NCBI GenBank assembly: GCA_947625505.1
Contig: CANQON010000006.1
Coordinates: 1 to 64,000 of the forward strand
Origin: an uncultured Bacilli bacterium
GTDB lineage: Bacteria > Bacillota_I > Bacilli_A > RF39 > UBA660
Direction of reading: 5' to 3'
DNA length: 64,000 bases
The notes below the pieces were generated by a model, which worked only from the letters and a program-made list of their open reading frames with translations, had not been told where the DNA came from and ran no database searches. Positions 23,085 to 40,663 of this stretch are shown here, piece by piece (position 1 is the stretch's first letter; the number at the start of each line of letters is the position of its first letter). Both the position numbers and the translations under genes were made by a program.

Positions 23085-23948
23085 TTACTTATATAATATA
23101 CGATATAAATTAAATGATGGTTTATTAAATAAACGTAATTTAATATTATTAGTACCTATACCGCTTGATATATATAAATCGGTTTTTTTGATTTTATAAT
23201 AGGTATCTATATATTCATTATCTTTTTCAGGTATTAGTAATTGTCTTATACCTGGAATATTTATTTGCCCTTTATGCGTATGTCCTGCTAATAAAAGATT
23301 ATAATTATCAACATTTATCTTTTTACTAAGACTAGGTTCATGCATAATTAAAATATTATATTTAGTTTCATTTGTGGATATTGCTTTATCAATATTCATG
23401 ATTTTTTCTTCAATATCTATTTTATCATTACGCGTAGATAATCCTCCAATAAGAATAGCTTCATAGTCGTTATTATAAATAATTTCATAAGTATTATCTA
23501 ATAATTTAAAGTCAGTCTTATCAATTATCTGTTTAAATTCTTCACGTTTATAATCATGATCTCCTGTAATAATATATTTATAATTACTATTAATTAAATT
23601 AAGTGTATCGGAAATATCAATTATATCTTTATCTGTATATTGGATATCTTTATCTAATAGGTCGCCTGATATAATAACGATATTAGGCTTGCTTTTATTA
23701 AGTTTTTTAATAATATTTGTTAATTCTTCTTTATTTGTTATTTCTCCATAATGTATATCACTTAAATGCGCAATGGTATATCCATAAAAAGAACTAGGAA
23801 CTTTACTATTAATAACATTATATTCATTTACATTAATACCTGTTGTTCCTACATAACGAGCACAGGTATAACATAGAGTAATAATTAAGATTAGGCTAAT
23901 TAATATTTTTAACCAAAGGAAATGATGTCCTTTTTTTTCTTCTTCCAT
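23085..23948 (-). CDS. Membrane-anchored metallophosphoesterase (YkuE-like)
   Basis: IAHLSDIHYGE, IISGDLLDKD, GDHDY, LLAGHTHKGQI; N-terminal TM. Confidence 0.9.
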   Translation of the reverse strand: MEEEKKGHHFLWLKILISLILIITLCYTCARYVGTTGINVNEYNVINSKVPSSFYGYTIAHLSDIHYGEITNKEELTNIIKKLNKSKPNIVIISGDLLDKDIQYTDKDIIDISDTLNLINSNYKYIITGDHDYKREEFKQIIDKTDFKLLDNTYEIIYNNDYEAILIGGLSTRNDKIDIEEKIMNIDKAISTNETKYNILIMHEPSLSKKINVDNYNLLLAGHTHKGQINIPGIRQLLIPEKDNEYIDTYYKIKKTDLYISSGIGTNNIKLRLFNKPSFNLYRILYK

Positions 23949-24008
23949 GTATTATCACCTATTATCATTTTAGCATATTCATTACAAAAAAAGAAGAATT
24001 ATTCTTCT

Positions 24009-24869
24009 TTAAATGTGTTTATATGTTAACCTATCTATTAATGGTAATAATAGATTCATAATGCATAAAGCTACTAAAGAACTAGTAGTAATAGACGTAT
24101 TAAATCTTATTAAGATAGTAATTATACCTAAGCATATACCATATAAAAAAGTATATTTATCATTAATAGGACTATATTTAGAATAAGGCGCTACTAAGAA
24201 TATATATATTAAAGAATTATCTATTAAAATATTAAATAAACCATATCCTAAATCTAATTTCAAAATACTTGTAATAAGGAAAATACTTAGTATATAACCT
24301 ATACTTATTTTCCATTTAATAGCTTTAGTACTTAATAATAAGATAATAATAGATATATATATGATAATATTAATAGTATTAGGAATATTACCTTCGATAG
24401 CGTTAATTAATGTTTCTTTACTATAAATAGGTATATTAGATAAGGTTATAGAATGTGTCATTAAGACAATGATTAATAAACCTAAAAGTAAAGGATTAAG
24501 ATTAATATCCCATAAAATGCTAAGTAAACGACTAATAATAATACTCATTAAAATACCAAATATAAGAAATGTAATAGGAGTATAACTAGGAGCTAATAAA
24601 CCTATTAATAAACCAGAGAATATGCCCTTAAGTGTTAAGTAATTCTTCTCTTTAAATATTAAATCAAATATAAGATTAGTTATATATGATGTCATAGTAC
24701 CTATGATAATAAATATTAAAGGATTTAATAAATCATTTAGGTTTTGACTATGTTGATAAGGAATAACACCATTTTTATAAAATAAGTAATTAGCAATTAT
24801 TACAATCGTAAAAAGAAGTATTACTCTTTGTTTTTTAGCTGTTAAGAAAGTATGAATATAATTAGACAT
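24009..24869 (-). CDS. RnfD-like membrane protein
   Basis: Multi-TM, SGLLIGLLAPSYTP, NLNPLLLG, GNIPNT align with RnfD/NqrB blocks; adjacent to rnfC-like gene; SGAT flavinylation motif not seen. Confidence 0.65.
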   Translation of the reverse strand: MSNYIHTFLTAKKQRVILLFTIVIIANYLFYKNGVIPYQHSQNLNDLLNPLIFIIIGTMTSYITNLIFDLIFKEKNYLTLKGIFSGLLIGLLAPSYTPITFLIFGILMSIIISRLLSILWDINLNPLLLGLLIIVLMTHSITLSNIPIYSKETLINAIEGNIPNTINIIIYISIIILLLSTKAIKWKISIGYILSIFLITSILKLDLGYGLFNILIDNSLIYIFLVAPYSKYSPINDKYTFLYGICLGIITILIRFNTSITTSSLVALCIMNLLLPLIDRLTYKHI

Positions 24870-26118
24870 GTTCTACCTCCTTAACTTTTTCTTTTGCACA
24901 TTTAACACTATCACACAAAGGAATTAAAGAAGGGCATACATAGGAACATAATCCACAATCTATACACTTTTGCACACTCATCTTTTGTAATTTATCAATA
25001 TTATCAAGATTATTGTGGATAACATTGGGATATAAGTGACAAGGACATACTTTTGCACACTTTCCACACCTTATACATTCTTCTTCTTGATAGTTATGTG
25101 GCTTTAGAAGAGAAAGTGCTGATAAATTTTTAGTTACCATTGAATCATTATCAGGGAGCTTATATCCTCTCATTGGTCCATTAGCAAGCATGATATATTG
25201 TTCATCATTAAGATGTAAATAATCTAGTATTTCTTTAATTGGTGTACCTATCTTAACTAAAATATTAGTTCCTTTAATATTACCTGATATGGTAATAATC
25301 CTTTCATATGGAGGCATACCTGTCTTTAAGACGTTGTATATAGCGTAGATAGTTGAAATATTATTAACAATAATACCTACCTCCATAGGTAGTGTATCAT
25401 AATTTTTTTTAGTAACATATTTAATTAGCTTTCTTTCCCAACCCATAGGATAAGTATTACCTACTAGTTTTACTTTAATACGAAGATAAGTTCCTACATA
25501 TTGATTAACTAAATCAGCTAATTTTTTATTCCTCTTTTGAATACATATTAAGCATTCATCTATTTTATTAATATCTAGGATTGCATCAATAGCTTCTAAT
25601 ATATCCGTTATTTTATTTTTAGTTAGTGTATAGTCAGCTGTTATATAAGTTTCACATTCTACAGCATTAACAATTAAAGTATTAATCTTTTTATCGGTAT
25701 TATATTTAATATAAGTAGGATTACCTTCTTTACCAATAATCCCTGTATTTTTTATTAACTCAATAAATTCATCTTTAGTATAGCTATGAATATCTTCTTT
25801 TAAACCAATTCTTTTCTCTAATTTCTCTTTAAAGTCATTTTCAATAATTAAGCATTTTACTTTTTCCCCGTTTATATATGTTTTTTCTGTTATATCTTTA
25901 ACAATACCACTTACACTAGAATGAAGATATGATTTAATAGATCCTTTATTATTAGCAACCATCATTCCTTTATATACATGATCACCTATTTTAGGAATAA
26001 CAGTTAAATCTTTATCATTACCAATAATTAAGGGTATATATATTTCATTAGGCTTTTTATATTCTACAAGTTTATTAAGAGTTAGTTTTTGTTTATGAAT
26101 AATTCCTTCTATTCTCAT
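24862..26118 (-). CDS. RnfC-like ferredoxin-domain protein
   Basis: RnfC barrel-sandwich N-terminus, NAVECETYITADYTL, two CxxCxxCxxxCP clusters (CIRCGKCAKVCP; CIDCGLCSYVCP). Confidence 0.8.
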   Translation of the reverse strand: MRIEGIIHKQKLTLNKLVEYKKPNEIYIPLIIGNDKDLTVIPKIGDHVYKGMMVANNKGSIKSYLHSSVSGIVKDITEKTYINGEKVKCLIIENDFKEKLEKRIGLKEDIHSYTKDEFIELIKNTGIIGKEGNPTYIKYNTDKKINTLIVNAVECETYITADYTLTKNKITDILEAIDAILDINKIDECLICIQKRNKKLADLVNQYVGTYLRIKVKLVGNTYPMGWERKLIKYVTKKNYDTLPMEVGIIVNNISTIYAIYNVLKTGMPPYERIITISGNIKGTNILVKIGTPIKEILDYLHLNDEQYIMLANGPMRGYKLPDNDSMVTKNLSALSLLKPHNYQEEECIRCGKCAKVCPCHLYPNVIHNNLDNIDKLQKMSVQKCIDCGLCSYVCPSLIPLCDSVKCAKEKVKEVEHV

Positions 26119-26214: not shown

Positions 26215-26480
26215 TAGCAATTGACAAAGTGACATTTATTGTCTATAATATAGCTCGAAAAAACGAAGAACAAGAGGAGTAAATTAACTAGTAGTTAAAA
26301 GAGATGAAAAGTCATTGGCTGAAAGCTTTTCTTAATGAAGATTAATTGAAGGTAGCTTGGGAGTTGTATATCTAAGTAAATAGGATATAACGTTAACTGC
26401 GTTAAAGTATGAGTGCATAATAAGTATTATGAAATAGGATGGTACCACGTGTAAGCGTTCCTATACATAATACTTTTTTG
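26215..26480 (+). promoter_or_regulatory. T-box leader riboswitch upstream of valS
   Basis: aggatGGTACCACGtgtaagcgttcct T-box/antiterminator core; terminator stem AAGTATTATG (26422-26431)/CATAATACTT (26466-26475)+T run; upstream TATAAT at 26203-26208. Confidence 0.9.
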
Positions 26481-26548: not shown

Positions 26549-29074
26549 ATGTTAGAAGCAAAATATAATCACAAAAAGGTAGAAGAAGGAAAGTATAATA
26601 ATTGGAAACAAAAAGGATACTTTGAAAGTGGCGATTTAAGTAAAAAGCCATATTGTATAGTTATTCCTCCTCCTAATGTTACAGGTAAATTACATTTAGG
26701 ACATGCTTGGGATACAACTTTACAAGACATATTAATTCGTTATAAGAAAATGAATGGATATGATGTATTATGGTTACCTGGTACTGATCATGCTGCTATC
26801 GCAACCGAAGCACGTGTTGTAGGCAAACTAAAACAAGAAGGAATCGACAAGTATGAATTAGGTCGTGATAAATTCTTAGATGCTTGTTGGGATTGGACAC
26901 ATAAGTATGCAGGTAATATTCGTGAACAATGGGCTAAACTAGGTCTTACTTTAGATTATCGTAAAGAAGCTTTTACCTTAGATGAAAATTTAACACGAGC
27001 TGTTAAAAAAGTATTTGTTGATTTATATAATGAAGGACTAATATACCGTGGAGAACGTATTATTAACTGGGATCCTGTTGCGAAGACAGCCTTATCTAAT
27101 GAAGAGGTATTCTATAAAGATGATGAAGGTGCTTTCTATCATTTAAAATACTTTATTGAAGATTCTGATGAATATCTTGATGTTGCGACAACACGTCCAG
27201 AAACTTTATTTGGAGATACAGCTGTAGCTGTTAATCCTAAAGATAAACGTTATAAACATTTAATAGGTAAACATGTTGTTTTACCTGTTGTTAATAAATT
27301 AATTCCTATTGTTGGAGATGAACATGCTGATCCTGAATTTGGTACAGGGGTAGTTAAGATTACACCTGCTCATGATCCTAATGACTTTGAAGTAGGTAAT
27401 CGTCATAACTTAGAACGTATTGTTGTTATGAATGAAGACGCTACAATGAATGAAAATGCAGGTAAGTATGTTGGTATGAGTCGTGAAGCTTGTCGTGAAG
27501 CTTTAGTAAATGATTTAAAAGAAGAGGGAATCTTAATAAGTATTGAACCTATGGTACATAGTGTTGGACATAGTGAAAGAACCGATGCTGTTGTAGAGCC
27601 TTACTTATCTAAGCAATGGTTTGTTAAGATGCGTCCTTTAGCAGATCGTGTTTTAAAGAATCAAAAAGATAAAAAGAATAAAGTAAATTTTGTACCTACA
27701 CATTATGAAAAAATAATGAATCATTGGATGGAAATAACTTATGATTGGTGTATATCACGTCAATTATGGTGGGGACATCGTATTCCTGCTTGGTATAAAG
27801 GTGATGATATATATGTAGGTATAGAGCCTCCTAAAGGTGATGGATGGGTACAAGATAATGATGTATTAGATACATGGTTTAGTAGTGCTTTATGGCCATT
27901 TGCTACTTTAGGATGGCCTAATGAAACGGATGATTATAAAAGATATTATCCTAATGATGTTTTAGTAACAGGATATGATATTATTCCATTCTGGGTTAAT
28001 AGAATGACTTTCCAAGGATTAAAGTTTACAGGTAAAAGACCTTTTAAAGATTGTTTAATACATGGATTAATTCGTGATAAGAATGGTGTTAAGATGAGTA
28101 AATCCTTAGGTAATGGTGTTGATCCTATGGATGTTATAGATGAATATGGATGTGATGCTTTAAGGTTCTTCTTAACTACTAATTCAGCTCCAGGCGCTGA
28201 TTTAAGATATGATGATGAAAAAGTTAAATCAGCATGGAATTTTATTAATAAATTATGGAATGCCTCTAGATTTGTTTTAATGAATCTTGAAGGATTTACT
28301 ACTAAAGATTATACTTTAAAGAACTTATCTTTACCTGATAAATGGATGCTAAATAAATTAAATAAAACAGTTAAAGAAGTAAGAAAAAATATGGATTCAT
28401 ATGATTTCCATAATGTAGGTAATGCTTTATATTCATTTATTTGGGATGATTTCTGTGATTGGTATATTGAGTTATCTAAGAGTGATATGTCTAATACTAA
28501 TAAGAGTGTTTTACTTAAAGTATTAACCGATATTGTTAAAATGTTACATCCTTTTATGCCATATGTAACTGAAGAGATATATTTAATGTTACCTATTAAA
28601 GATCAAGAATCTATTATGTTAGAAAATTATCCTAAAGCTACAAAGAATAAATATGATGAAGAAGAAGATACTTTAGATAAGATTATTGAAGATATTATCG
28701 CTATTAGAAATTTAAAAGCAACTAATAATATTACAAAACAAGCTAAGGTTAAATATGAAGTAGACTCTTCTTTAGAAACAATTTATACATCACAATTAAA
28801 GATTAAAGAAGAAAATATTTTACAAGATAATAACGAATATTTAACAAGTAATTATAAATCTAAATATATTAATATTACTTATTATTATGAAGGTACTAAA
28901 GAAGATGAAAGCCGTAAAGAAGAAGAAATTAAAAAACTTGAAGCTTCTATTGAACGCCGTGAAAAATTATTAAGTAATGAAAATTATGTATCTAAAGCTC
29001 CTTTAAATATTGTTGAAGCTGATCGTAAGAAATTAGCTGAAGAAAAAGAAAAATTAGCTATATTAAAGGGTTAA
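26549..29074 (+). CDS. valS: Valyl-tRNA synthetase
   Basis: [27 protein letters not shown], ValRS C-terminal coiled coil. Confidence 0.98.
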
Positions 29075-33261: not shown

Positions 33262-33301
33262 TATGATTATATTTAGAACATGATGGGTGTGTGGAAGTTT
33301 T

Positions 33302-35515
33302 ATGATAGAAGAATGGAATGGTTTTAAAGGTACTAAATGGCAACAAACGATTGATGTTGAAGACTTTATTATCAATAATTATAAAGAGTATACAGGAAGT
33401 TCAGAATTCTTAAAAGGAATAAGTAGAAAAACAAGTCGCGTTTGGAGTAGATGTCAAAAACTATTAGATAAAGAGGATATAACCAAAGTATTAGATGTAG
33501 AAACTAGTTATTTTTCTAGTATTAATGGTTTTGAACAAGGATACATTGATAAAAAAAATGAAGTAATCGTTGGATTACAAACTGATGAACCTTTAAAACA
33601 ATTTATTAATCCCTTTGTAGCTTTAGATTCTTCTTTAGAAGCTTCTAAAAATTATGGATATCGTTTTGATCGTAATATGGAAGAACATTTTAGAGAGTTC
33701 GCTATATCACATGAAGAAGCTACAGAAGCATCTTATACTAAAGAGATAAAAAAATATCGTGAAGTTCATTTATTAGAGGGATTACCTGATAATTATGGAA
33801 GGGGATTTATTGTCTCTGATTTTAGACGTTTACCTTTATATGGAGCTGATTATTTAATAGCGCGTAAAGAACATGATTTAGATCGTTTAAGACGTGATAT
33901 TAATTATTCTATTGTACGTACAAGAGAAGAAGTAATAAAACAAATTGATGCTTTAAAGAAGATAAAAGATATGGCTAAGCATTACGATATTGATATATCA
34001 AGGCCTGCTAAAAATACTAAAGAAGCTATTCAATGGTTATATTTTGCTTATTTAGGAGCTAGTAAAGATACTTGCAGTGCTTCTTTACCAGTAGGAAATA
34101 ATACACCATTTTTAGATATTTATATTAATAGAGATTTAGAAAATGGTAGTATTAAAGAAGAAGAAGTGCAAGAATTAATTGATCAATTTATTATTAAATT
34201 ACGTTTAATAAGATTTTTGCATACACCTGAATATAAAAATTATTTTCCAGGTAAGAATCCTTTGATTACTGAAGTAATTGGGGGATTATATAATGGTAAA
34301 TCGCTTATTACTCAAACAGCATATCGCTTCTTAAACTCCTTAGAAAATTTAGGAACATATCCTGTACCTAGTTTTGCTATTTTATGGAGTTCGAAATTAC
34401 CAATTAATTTTAAAAGATATTGTGCTAAAACTATGTTAAGTCATCATACTATTGAGTTATTAAATGCTGATAAGTTAGATAGTTTTAATTATGCTGTTAC
34501 GGGTTTAGCAGGTTTATCTAAGATAGGTAAACAAATTGATTACTATGGTGGTAGTTGTAATTTACCTAAAGCTTTATTATATGCTATTAATGAAGGTAAA
34601 GATGAAATAACAGGAGAACTTGTTATTCCTGATATAGAACCTATTAAGGATGATGTTTTAAATTATCCAATAGTTGTTAAAAACTTTGTTAAAGTATTAA
34701 GTAAATTAATATGTATTTATGCTGATGCTTTAAATATTGTGCATTATATGCATGATAAGTATGCTTATGAAGGATCTTTAATGGCATTTAATGATACAGT
34801 AGTTGAAAGATATATTACTTTTGGTATAGCAGGATTATCTACTTTAGTAGATTCTTTATGTGCTATTAGATATGCTAAAGTCCATGTAAATCGTGATGAT
34901 AAAGGTTTAACTACGGATTTTAATATTGATGGTTCTTTCCCTAAATTTGGTAATAATCAAGATGAAGCTGATCGTATTGCTAGTGATATTATTAAATTAT
35001 TTAATAAAGAATTACGTAATCATCATATGTATCGAAATGCTAAAATAAAAGTTGGTGTTGAAACAGTAGGATTAAATATGGTATATGGTAATAATACAGG
35101 ATCAACACCTAATGGACGCTTTAAAGGAGTACCTTATGCTATAGGAGCATGTCCTGTAGGAAATGCCGATACTAAAGGACTTTTATCTTCTTTAAAGAGT
35201 GTTATGAAATTACCAAAAGAACTATGTACTAATGGTATTATTACGACAGTTAATATTAGTGGTAATGCTTTAGGTAGTAAAAAGAGCGAAAGAGCAGAGA
35301 ATATTATAGGCTTATTAGATAGCTACTTTAATCAAAATGGTAGTCAGTTAGAAATAAATATCATTGATAAAAGTACTATTACTTCAGCTATAAAAGATGA
35401 TCGTAATTATACTAATTTAGTTCTTCATAATGGGGGATTTGCTGTAAGATTTAAAGATATAGATAATAATTTATCTAATGATTTAGCTGAAAGAACATTT
35501 CATGAGGTATTATAA
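33302..35515 (+). CDS. Pyruvate formate-lyase homologue lacking the catalytic Cys-Cys pair (putative pseudoenzyme)
   Basis: Collinear with PFL (VGLQTDEPLKQFINPF, GLPDNYGRGFIVSDFRRLPLYGADYL, LHNGGFAVRF at C-terminus) but YAIACCVSPMIVGKQ is YAVTGLAGLSKIGKQ. Confidence 0.88.
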   Translation: MIEEWNGFKGTKWQQTIDVEDFIINNYKEYTGSSEFLKGISRKTSRVWSRCQKLLDKEDITKVLDVETSYFSSINGFEQGYIDKKNEVIVGLQTDEPLKQFINPFVALDSSLEASKNYGYRFDRNMEEHFREFAISHEEATEASYTKEIKKYREVHLLEGLPDNYGRGFIVSDFRRLPLYGADYLIARKEHDLDRLRRDINYSIVRTREEVIKQIDALKKIKDMAKHYDIDISRPAKNTKEAIQWLYFAYLGASKDTCSASLPVGNNTPFLDIYINRDLENGSIKEEEVQELIDQFIIKLRLIRFLHTPEYKNYFPGKNPLITEVIGGLYNGKSLITQTAYRFLNSLENLGTYPVPSFAILWSSKLPINFKRYCAKTMLSHHTIELLNADKLDSFNYAVTGLAGLSKIGKQIDYYGGSCNLPKALLYAINEGKDEITGELVIPDIEPIKDDVLNYPIVVKNFVKVLSKLICIYADALNIVHYMHDKYAYEGSLMAFNDTVVERYITFGIAGLSTLVDSLCAIRYAKVHVNRDDKGLTTDFNIDGSFPKFGNNQDEADRIASDIIKLFNKELRNHHMYRNAKIKVGVETVGLNMVYGNNTGSTPNGRFKGVPYAIGACPVGNADTKGLLSSLKSVMKLPKELCTNGIITTVNISGNALGSKKSERAENIIGLLDSYFNQNGSQLEINIIDKSTITSAIKDDRNYTNLVLHNGGFAVRFKDIDNNLSNDLAERTFHEVL

Positions 35516-37291: not shown

Positions 37292-40200
37292 ATGAAGAAG
37301 ACAATAACAGTTGATGGTAATGAAGCTTGTAGTTATACATCATATATGTTTACGGAGGTAGCAGGAATATATCCTATTACACCTTCTAGTCCTATGGCAG
37401 AACATGTCGATGAGATGAGTTCTAAAGCAGTAAATTTATTTAATAATCCTGTTAAAGTAGTAGAAATGCAAAGTGAAGCAGGAGCTGCTGGCTTTATTCA
37501 TGGTTCATTAAAAGCAGGATGCTTAACAACTACTTTTACAGCTAGTCAAGGATTATTACTTATGATACCTAATATGTATAAAATAGCAGGAGAGATGCTT
37601 CCAGGGGTTATTCATGTGGCAGCTCGTGCTTTATCTACACATGCTTTAAGTATCTTTGGTGATCATCAAGATATATATGCTTGTCGTATGACAGGTTTTG
37701 CGATGTTAGCATCTTCATCAGTTCAAGATGCTGCTTATTTAAGTGCAGTCGCACATTTATCTAGTATTAAAGCTAGTCTTCCTTTTATGCATTTCTTTGA
37801 TGGCTTTAGAACTAGTCATGAAATTCAAAAGATAGAAGTATTGCAAGCAAGTGATTATCAAGATATGCTAGATTATGAAGCTCTAGATAGATTCCGTCGT
37901 CGTGCTTTAAATCCTCATCATCCAAAAACGCATGGTACAGCGCAAAATGAAGATATTTATTTTCAAACAACGGAAGCTCGTAATATTTATTATGATAGAT
38001 TACCTGATATCGTTAATGATTATATGGAAAAAATAAATACGAAAGCAGGTACTGATTATAAACCATTTAATTATTATGGTAGTGAGACAGCATCTAAAGT
38101 TATTGTTGCGATGGGTTCAGTATGTGAAACAATTAAAGAAGTAATTGATGCTAAAAAAGATGTAGGATTAATAGAAGTACATTTATATCGTCCATTTAGC
38201 TCTAAATATTTATTAAATGTATTACCTAGTACAGTTAAAAAAATAGCTGTATTAGATCGTACTAAAGAAGCAGGTAGTAATGGAGAACCTTTATATTTAG
38301 ATATCGTTAATGCTTTAAAAGGTAAAAATATTGAAATAGTAGGTGGAAGATATGGTTTAGCTAGTAAGAATACAACACCTAGTGATATTAATGCGGTATA
38401 TGAGATGTTAGATAATCCTAAAAATAACTTTACTTTAGGTATTGTTGATGATGTAACACATCTTAGTTTAGAACCTATAAATATTGAAACAAAAAAATGC
38501 AATGAGTGGTTATTCTATGGATATGGTTCTGATGGTATGGTAGGAGCTTCTAAATCCATTATTAAATTAATTGGTGATAATACCGATGACTATGTACAAG
38601 GATATTTCCAATATGATTCTAAAAAATCAGGAGGAGTAACTTGTAGTCATTTAAGATTTAGTACAGATAAGATAAGATCAACTTATTATGTAATGAAACC
38701 TTCATTAGTTGTTATAACAAAAGATAGTTATTTAGAAGATTATGATCTATTAAGTGATCTTGATGATAGCGCTACTGTGATAATCAATACTATTCATAAT
38801 GAAGAAAAAATAAATAAAATGTTAAATAACCATCTAAAGAAATTATTATTAGATAAACATGCAAAAGTATATTTAATTAATGCTTATGATTTAGCTGAAC
38901 AAGTAGGATTAAAAGGTAAAATTAGTACGATTATGGAAAGCACTATTATGTATTTAACTAGTGTTATGCCTTACGATGAAGCATTAAAATATATTGAAGA
39001 TGGTATTAAGAAAAAGTTTGCTAAAAAAGGCGAAAGTGTCGTTAATGCTAATCTTGAAGCTATTAAACTTGCTACTACTAACTTAAAAGAAATAACAATT
39101 GATAATAATTTTAGTGATAAGGAAGAAGAAAAAACATCATTAGTTAAAACGATTATGAAAAGGAAAGGTGAGTCTTTAAAAACATCTGATTTTGTAAGAC
39201 GTGCTGATGGAGTTTTTGAAAGTGGAACTAGTGTTTTAGAAAAGAGATATATTAGTGATGTTGTACCTGCATGGATAAGTAGTAATTGTTCTAATTGTAA
39301 TCAATGTTCATTATATTGTCCACATGGTGTTATAAGACCTTTCATATTGGATGAAGAAGAATATAATAATGCTCCAGAAGAAATAAAGAAACGTGCTGTT
39401 AAGGCTATAGGTATGGATTATTATTATATTATTAGTGCTTCAGTAGCTGATTGTACAGGATGTGGTGTATGTGTAAGTGTATGTCCTGGTATGAAAGGCA
39501 ATAAAGCTCTTACAATGGATAAAATAAATCCTAAAGAACAAGAAGTATTTAATTATCTTGATAAGAATATTAAACCTAAAGATGTAGGTAATATCTTTAC
39601 TGTTAAAAATAGTCAATTTAATAAACCTAAATTTGCTTTTTCAGGTGCTTGTGCAGGATGTGGAGAAACAGCTTATATTAAATTGTTAACACAATTATTT
39701 GGGGAACATTTAATTATTAGTAATGCGACAGGATGTTCTTCTATCTACGGAGGAAGTGCTCCTACAACACCTTATACTATTCCATGGGCTAGTAGCTTAT
39801 TTGAAGATAATGCAGAATATGGATATGGTATGCTAATAGCTAACAATGTTATACGTACGCGTATAGCAGGTATTATGGAAAAGAATATGGATAATGAAAA
39901 TAGTGAACTATTTAAAGAATGGCTAGATAATTCTAATAGTTATGAACATACAAAGCATGTTTATGATAACTTAACAGACAATATACCAGAAGAATTAAAA
40001 GAATTAAAAGACTATATTACTGTTCGTAATATCTGGTGTATTGGAGGCGATGGATGGGCTTATGATATTGGTTATGGAGGAATAGACCATGTCTTAGCTA
40101 GTCGTGATAATATTAAAATATTAGTCCTTGATAGCCAAGTATATTCTAATACAGGAGGACAATCATCTAAAGCTAGCCCTAAAGGCGCTATTGCATCCTT

Positions 40201-40663
40201 TGCTTCAATGGGTAAGAAAACAAATAAAAAGGATTTAGCTCGTATCGCTATGTCTTATCCAGATGTTTATGTAGCCCAAGTATCATTAGGAGCTAATCCT
40301 ATGCAAGTAGTAAAAGCTTTTAAAGAAGCTAATGAATATGATGGTCCTGCTATTATTATAGCTTATACTCCATGTATTTCTCATGGCATTAAGGGTGGAA
40401 TGGAACATAGTGTTGATATGGAAAAATTAGCTACTAATTCAGGATATTTCTTAACCTTTAGAAGACATCCAATAGATGGATTTACTTTAGATAGTAAAAA
40501 TGTTAATTTTGACTTATATGAAGAATTCTTAAATAGTCAAACAAGATATAATATGTTAAAAGTAATTAATCCTGATAAAGCTAATGATTTATTACAAGCT
40601 AATAAGGATAATGCTATTAAGACTTATAATTACTATGAAGAATTAGGAAAAAGTAATCAATAG
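37292..40663 (+). CDS. nifJ: Pyruvate:ferredoxin (flavodoxin) oxidoreductase
   Basis: TVDGNEACSYTSYMFTEVAGIYPITPSSPMAEH, CSNCNQCSLYCP, CTGCGVCVSVCP, GDGWAYDIGYGGIDHVLAS, SNTGGQSSKASP. Confidence 0.97.
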   Translation: MKKTITVDGNEACSYTSYMFTEVAGIYPITPSSPMAEHVDEMSSKAVNLFNNPVKVVEMQSEAGAAGFIHGSLKAGCLTTTFTASQGLLLMIPNMYKIAGEMLPGVIHVAARALSTHALSIFGDHQDIYACRMTGFAMLASSSVQDAAYLSAVAHLSSIKASLPFMHFFDGFRTSHEIQKIEVLQASDYQDMLDYEALDRFRRRALNPHHPKTHGTAQNEDIYFQTTEARNIYYDRLPDIVNDYMEKINTKAGTDYKPFNYYGSETASKVIVAMGSVCETIKEVIDAKKDVGLIEVHLYRPFSSKYLLNVLPSTVKKIAVLDRTKEAGSNGEPLYLDIVNALKGKNIEIVGGRYGLASKNTTPSDINAVYEMLDNPKNNFTLGIVDDVTHLSLEPINIETKKCNEWLFYGYGSDGMVGASKSIIKLIGDNTDDYVQGYFQYDSKKSGGVTCSHLRFSTDKIRSTYYVMKPSLVVITKDSYLEDYDLLSDLDDSATVIINTIHNEEKINKMLNNHLKKLLLDKHAKVYLINAYDLAEQVGLKGKISTIMESTIMYLTSVMPYDEALKYIEDGIKKKFAKKGESVVNANLEAIKLATTNLKEITIDNNFSDKEEEKTSLVKTIMKRKGESLKTSDFVRRADGVFESGTSVLEKRYISDVVPAWISSNCSNCNQCSLYCPHGVIRPFILDEEEYNNAPEEIKKRAVKAIGMDYYYIISASVADCTGCGVCVSVCPGMKGNKALTMDKINPKEQEVFNYLDKNIKPKDVGNIFTVKNSQFNKPKFAFSGACAGCGETAYIKLLTQLFGEHLIISNATGCSSIYGGSAPTTPYTIPWASSLFEDNAEYGYGMLIANNVIRTRIAGIMEKNMDNENSELFKEWLDNSNSYEHTKHVYDNLTDNIPEELKELKDYITVRNIWCIGGDGWAYDIGYGGIDHVLASRDNIKILVLDSQVYSNTGGQSSKASPKGAIASFASMGKKTNKKDLARIAMSYPDVYVAQVSLGANPMQVVKAFKEANEYDGPAIIIAYTPCISHGIKGGMEHSVDMEKLATNSGYFLTFRRHPIDGFTLDSKNVNFDLYEEFLNSQTRYNMLKVINPDKANDLLQANKDNAIKTYNYYEELGKSNQ

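Follow-up and report, generated by a model that had tools for sequence, protein, structure and literature searches.

The stretch of DNA analysed here (the window) comprises 64,000 nucleotides from the genome of an uncultured Bacilli bacterium and carries, on its minus strand, two intact frames encoding homologues of RnfC and RnfD (Table 1). The frames overlap by 8 nt, a GGAGGT precedes the rnfD start inside the 3′ end of rnfC, and a hairpin with a T-run follows rnfD, which together suggest that the two genes form one bicistronic unit; the hairpin is too AT-rich for the terminator scanner and was found by folding and sequence reading. The pair is flanked by a metallophosphoesterase gene and by valS, the latter preceded by a T-box leader.

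Table 1. Positions of the genes, motifs and other features of the window mentioned in the text
Feature	Position	Strand	Remarks
Metallophosphoesterase	23085-23948	-	flanks the pair
Terminator-like AT-rich hairpin, 9 bp + T-run	23983-24010	-	directly 3′ of rnfD; fold -9.0 kcal/mol, z -2.46
RnfD homologue, 286 aa	24009-24869	-	polytopic membrane protein; PF03116 only, without RnfG domain
FLVAPYSKYSP	24168-24200	-	replaces FMATDPVTSP; Tyr where A. woodii RnfD has its riboflavin-binding Asp (D249)
GNIPNT	24375-24392		conserved block of RnfD
IPIYSKETLI	24405-24434	-	where the covalent-FMN motif is expected; attachment Thr absent
NLNPLLLG	24480-24503	-	Asn125 kept, equivalent of A. woodii riboflavin ligand N123
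SGLLIGLLAP	24588-24617		conserved block of RnfD
RnfC homologue, 418 aa	24862-26118	-	RnfC_N barrel at N-terminus, NuoF-like FMN/NADH domain, C-terminal 2x[4Fe-4S] ferredoxin domain
Second [4Fe-4S] motif, CIDCGLCSYVCP	24931-24966	-	CxxCxxCxxxCP; four Cys invariant in 80 C-D pairs
First [4Fe-4S] motif, CIRCGKCAKVCP	25042-25077	-	CxxCxxCxxxCP; four Cys invariant in 80 C-D pairs
Damaged flavin/NADH loop, GKEGN--PTYIK	25705-25734	-	two residues shorter than GLGGAGFPTYVK
T-box leader	26257-26465	+	Rfam RF00230, 107.3 bits
valS	26549-29074	+	flanks the pair
Pyruvate formate-lyase-like protein	33287-35515	+	782.7 bits
PFOR (pyruvate:ferredoxin oxidoreductase)	37292-40663	+	

By family and by fold, the product of the first gene is an RnfC subunit with two [4Fe-4S] clusters: it reached 296 bits against TIGR01945 (cut-off 245.95), matched solved RnfC chains with E values down to 5.5e-64, has all eight cysteines, and gave an AlphaFold2 model (pLDDT 89) whose best PDB match is the RnfC of A. 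woodii (9eri_C, TM 0.91 by query length). Its flavin/NADH loop is not intact, and alignment with PDB and family sequences attributes the shortening to a true two-residue deletion, with no shift, in a loop that the nearest relatives keep (GLSGNGFPTYVK in G003 and GMSGNGFPTYMK in G008). The RnfD homologue passes Pfam PF03116 (82.4 bits, cut-off 27.7) and stays far under the cut-off of TIGR01946 (46.5 bits against 207). Its model (pLDDT 76) found RnfD/NqrB matches at TM 0.66-0.75 by query length and, weakly, urea transporters (E about 0.014, TM 0.44-0.49), RnfD/NqrB being related in fold to urea/ammonium transporters (PMC12174285). The covalent-FMN site of RnfD reads D-x-[VI]-[ST]-x-[AS]-T-P-L (T156 in A. 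woodii), and the riboflavin ligands of the A. woodii protein are N123 and D249 (PMC11889175). Neither the attachment threonine nor the full pair of ligands is present in the window RnfD. The original prediction, made from the window alone, had described C- and D-like genes as the only rnf genes here, between the same two flanking genes, with two CxxCxxCxxxCP clusters in RnfC and the blocks SGLLIGLLAP, NLNPLLLG and GNIPNT and the stretch IPIYSKETLI in RnfD, and all of these were located. It was also right that the RnfC loop is altered, the loop lying somewhat away from the position given for it (about 25712-25752), and that RnfD has lost its FMN attachment site, although the motif it named, S/T-GAT, is that of RnfG (FMN_bind) and not of RnfD.

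Genome-wide searches of the window assembly (G000; 1.66 Mb, 59 contigs, 94.85% complete) returned a single Complex1_51K/RnfC match and a single RnfD, but no match to PF02508 (Rnf-Nqr) for RnfA/E, to TIGR01944 for RnfB or to PF04205 (FMN_bind) for RnfG; a widened A/E profile also found nothing among the neighbours of the pair. The same searches detected A/E, RnfB and FMN_bind in relatives, which supports their absence here, and hidden or divergent copies of A, E, G or B were rejected on the basis of the family searches together with the widened profile. Because RnfB, RnfA/E, RnfG and the FMN of RnfD are all missing, there would be no ferredoxin path across the membrane, so that the sequence excludes an Rnf pump and strongly supports the conclusion that the pair is something else. 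Neither rnfGEAB elsewhere in the genome nor flavin motifs at shifted positions came to light, and the idea of a stripped-down module instead of a pumping Rnf complex is thus supported as a whole, its non-pump half strongly; the other half, an electron-transfer or scaffold role, is something that we infer.

The wider survey drew on 386 genomes of the window's family, 60 of which have RnfA/E over the cut-off, and covered the neighbourhoods of RnfC matches without A/E. It yielded 80 pairs in 35 genus codes, all within this one family, in which rnfC is followed by rnfD with no other Rnf gene in the neighbourhood (hereafter C-D pairs); unrelated genes lie downstream of them and the widened profile found no A/E-like gene nearby. 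Since the gap between the two genes is 10 nt or less in 79/80, chance pairing is excluded. The full operon of the family runs rnfC-rnfDG-rnfE-rnfA-rnfB, with RnfG fused to RnfD, and nine members (G033, G080, G214, G308, G376, G174, G278, G354 and G306) have rnfC and a fused rnfDG without A, E or B. The RnfG domain and ApbE are kept in these C-DG genomes, as is the threonine motif of RnfD, with slight changes in some, and they resemble an intermediate step of the reduction; a degenerate A or E was seen in three genomes (G060, G177 and G281). With full, C-DG and C-D loci all found, every stage is present in the family. The pair is also dispensable, as 8 of the 12 genomes of the window's genus group are without RnfC and RnfD. 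An RnfC remnant was observed in G030 (L101:2227-3255, minus strand), where an open frame of 342 aa adjoins a metallophosphoesterase gene, the Fe-S motifs being absent and RnfD gone. Beyond the family, apparent C-D pairs in named genomes look like contig ends or incomplete loci, and most other cases are fuller Rnf operons. G038 and G049, from another family of the class, were likewise rejected as C-D genomes: their loci (L105 and L106) run rnfC-rnfDG-FMN_bind and continue with two genes of ~175 aa and ApbE, Pfam recognising no Rnf-Nqr there, and one of these genes in G038 has a weak RnfA match (26 bits).

All eight cysteines of the two clusters are conserved in 80/80 RnfC of the C-D pairs, and the covalent-FMN motif of RnfD is lost or broken in every one of the 80; it is intact or lightly changed in 22 comparison sequences that retain RnfG or A/E. 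In ten RnfD of C-D pairs, mostly from genomes without ApbE, an isolated Thr or Ser falls at the FMN site, and the riboflavin ligands fare unevenly, N123 being kept in 62/80 and D249 in 34/80. RnfC falls into two length classes, 31 long proteins in which the flavin/NADH loop is mostly kept and 49 short ones in which it is mostly deleted. ApbE was found in 12/80 genomes without RnfG against 36/39 with it, counts taken from genomes related by descent; the raw contrast is strong, but when loss of RnfG was tested against that of ApbE in pairs on the tree, the result fell short of significance, with too few independent pairs. As for a constant genomic neighbour that might be a partner, none was found across the C-D pairs: part of the short-RnfC clade (L095, L098, L102 and others) has the pair among uvrC, dnaG, rpoD and trmK, and a metallophosphoesterase lies 3′ of the pair in the closest relatives of the window (beside RnfC alone in G030), but neither association is general.

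The C-D-only arrangement, whose conservation in relatives the original prediction had proposed to check, proved to be conserved, with dN/dS values (Nei-Gojobori) in 13 close C-D pairs of 0.09-0.33 for rnfC and 0.06-0.35 for rnfD, as expected under purifying selection. Between G000 and G003 the values are 0.20 for rnfC and 0.68 for rnfD, where dS exceeds 1 (saturated) and the rnfD figure is unreliable; the window RnfD shares 30% identity with that of G003, its nearest relative, and RnfD evolves very fast in this lineage. This suggests that constraint on RnfD may have relaxed in the lineage of the window. The C-D sequences do not form one clade in a maximum-likelihood tree built from 119 RnfC (AU p = 0.0005), and the C-D label changes at least four times on supported branches and about 10 times by parsimony on the best tree, the exact number not being firm in a quick tree with long branches. 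The window, G003 and G008 belong together to a single reduction, apart from a C-D-only clade of 43 sequences that spans many genera, and within a single genus code (g94) a C-D genome and a full-Rnf genome (G107 and G325) are sisters.

Compared with the Rnf complex (RnfCDGEAB; A. woodii 9eri, C. tetanomorphum 7zc6, A. vinelandii 8ahx), RnfC and RnfD of the window are true homologues in the same order, RnfC with the same fold and both clusters; the pair differs in that RnfB, RnfG, RnfE and RnfA are absent, as are the covalent FMN site, an intact RnfC loop and the riboflavin Asp. The nearest known system is that of the two-subunit, flavinylation-associated Nqr/Rnf-like complexes, in which an RnfD-like protein with a fused NqrF-type NAD domain occurs with an FMN_bind protein and a link to ApbE (PMC8238504, PMC10979944). 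A reduced gene set and an RnfD/NqrB-like subunit without the attachment Thr are common to both, but here the partner is an RnfC with Fe-S clusters, no FMN_bind protein is present and usually no ApbE. The window RnfD carries no NqrF-type NAD domain (PF00175), and neither an FMN_bind (NqrC/RnfG) partner nor ApbE stands in its gene cluster, so that the pair lacks the defining features of these complexes as well as most of those of Rnf. In NqrA-NqrB of Na+-NQR, too, a subunit of RnfC type docks from the cytosol on one of RnfD type, and one of the two is cofactor-depleted; however, NqrA, a relative of RnfC, has lost its Fe-S clusters and FMN and is retained in the six-subunit pump (PMC12174285), whereas the window pair keeps the Fe-S clusters and the pump subunits are gone. 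The rnfC-rnfDG pairs of the same family share the C-D adjacency and the absence of A/E/B and, unlike the window pair, keep the RnfG domain. Our literature search found no description of a C-D-only module, and the available part of a Tenericutes study that includes RF39 speaks of Rnf as retained by other groups and does not describe the pair (PMC7301438).

We consider it somewhat probable (roughly 0.55) that RnfC-RnfD is a recurrent, selected module, a membrane-tethered Fe-S electron relay left from a reduced Rnf operon. Gene content, pairing, cysteine conservation, site loss, repeated origin and purifying selection are established at the level of sequence, and from these we propose the tethering, the relay role and the existence of a partner. 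An operon of the order rnfC-rnfDG-rnfE-rnfA-rnfB, in a reduced-genome family of Bacilli, would have lost RnfG, RnfE, RnfA and RnfB; from RnfD the RnfG domain and the covalent FMN would be gone, in the window together with one of the two ligands of riboflavin, and what remains most probably anchors RnfC to the membrane and gives it a docking site. In the solved complexes RnfD grips RnfC with its N- and C-terminal arms, and electrons move from the riboflavin of RnfD to the proximal cluster of RnfC, whose two clusters pass them to FMN and on to NAD+ (PMC9588780, PMC11889175). Because the N-terminal arm of RnfD is buried in RnfC there, we infer tethering here as well, and a tethered Fe-S relay is favored because selection keeps the two-cluster domain of RnfC beside a membrane RnfD. 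With its two-cluster ferredoxin domain under strict selection and its FMN/NADH-type domain kept in many lineages, RnfC would lie at the inner membrane face and relay electrons between the predicted partner and carriers in solution, NADH or ferredoxin. Electrons cannot follow the Rnf route that starts at ferredoxin and runs by way of RnfB, AE, G and D to C, nor can Na+/H+ be pumped by that mechanism. The broader proposal, that RnfCD is a two-subunit redox module which arose several times from Rnf by shedding the pump and every covalent flavin, and which throughout a gut-bacterial family feeds a putative acceptor as a membrane-tethered bis-[4Fe-4S] relay, whether FMN/NADH takes part or not, has in our judgment about an even chance.

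The main rival, serious in the window's own lineage, is that decay is under way and that the pair is an Rnf vestige with little or no function in this species. The eight genus-group genomes without the genes, the two loop residues missing here and kept by G003 and G008, the low identity of the window RnfD with its high dN/dS (about 0.7, at saturated dS) and the loss of RnfD and the Fe-S domain in G030 all agree with it, but a vestige would sit poorly with two intact, overlapping frames ending at a terminator-like hairpin, with eight retained cysteines and an RnfC dN/dS of about 0.20, or with the strong purifying selection in other C-D lineages and a 43-member clade over many genera; we hold decay to be rather unlikely. 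Less likely still is a reduced trans-membrane chain of the Nqr/Rnf-like kind, in which RnfC (NADH, FMN, two [4Fe-4S]) would pass electrons through a non-covalent flavin in RnfD to an extracytosolic acceptor. Two-subunit complexes whose RnfD-like subunit has no attachment Thr have been proposed (PMC10979944, PMC8238504), and both the frequency of N123 and D249 among the C-D pairs and the mostly kept loop of long RnfC would suit such a chain, whereas in the window the Asp is a Tyr, the loop is damaged and the genome has no FMN_bind partner, and more than half of the RnfD of C-D pairs are without the Asp.

That RnfD has turned into a solute channel, like urea/ammonium transporters, with RnfC as redox sensor, we judge very improbable: the weak transporter matches of the model and the known kinship of RnfD/NqrB with these proteins point that way, but such likeness is general to RnfD, and the pair showed neither transport residues nor linked transport genes. 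That the Rnf is complete after all, its A, E, G and B having diverged strongly or escaped assembly, appears extremely improbable, even with an assembly in many contigs that falls short of completeness and with the precedent of G038/G049, whose small operon genes Pfam misses; the four genes are missing from 80 pairs with unrelated genes downstream, the widened profile recovered nothing around them, and the covalent-FMN motif and, mostly, ApbE have been lost in step.

Rnf subunits are usually assumed to be functional only within the six-part pump. This family shows C and D to have a selectable role outside it, and a reduction that happened more than once, with intermediates still visible (C-DG loci; degenerate A/E), offers a natural series for asking what RnfC-RnfD alone does and bears on the open question of RnfD participation in ion transport. 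Matches to rnfC/rnfD in gut metagenomes call for caution against inferring Rnf energy conservation, and genomes of this kind may be annotated as Rnf.

The sole ApbE of the window genome is on a different contig, as the C-terminal domain of a 696-aa fusion protein (L082:133-2223, plus strand, G000:C19) that begins with a group 1/4 glycosyltransferase. Most of the genus-group genomes again have ApbE matches in frames of 678-708 aa, though G000 has no FMN_bind protein, and some ApbE motifs in these fusions seem altered by eye. No FeFe hydrogenase was found in the window genome, and a role for the pair as hydrogenase substitute, providing a ferredoxin sink, was rejected as not required: in the family sample no C-D genome has FeFe hydrogenase, but many genomes are without both. 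PFOR is encoded in the window, and a few kb from this full gene lies that of the pyruvate formate-lyase-like protein, whose score in a single family scan is under the equivalog cut-off of 994.2.
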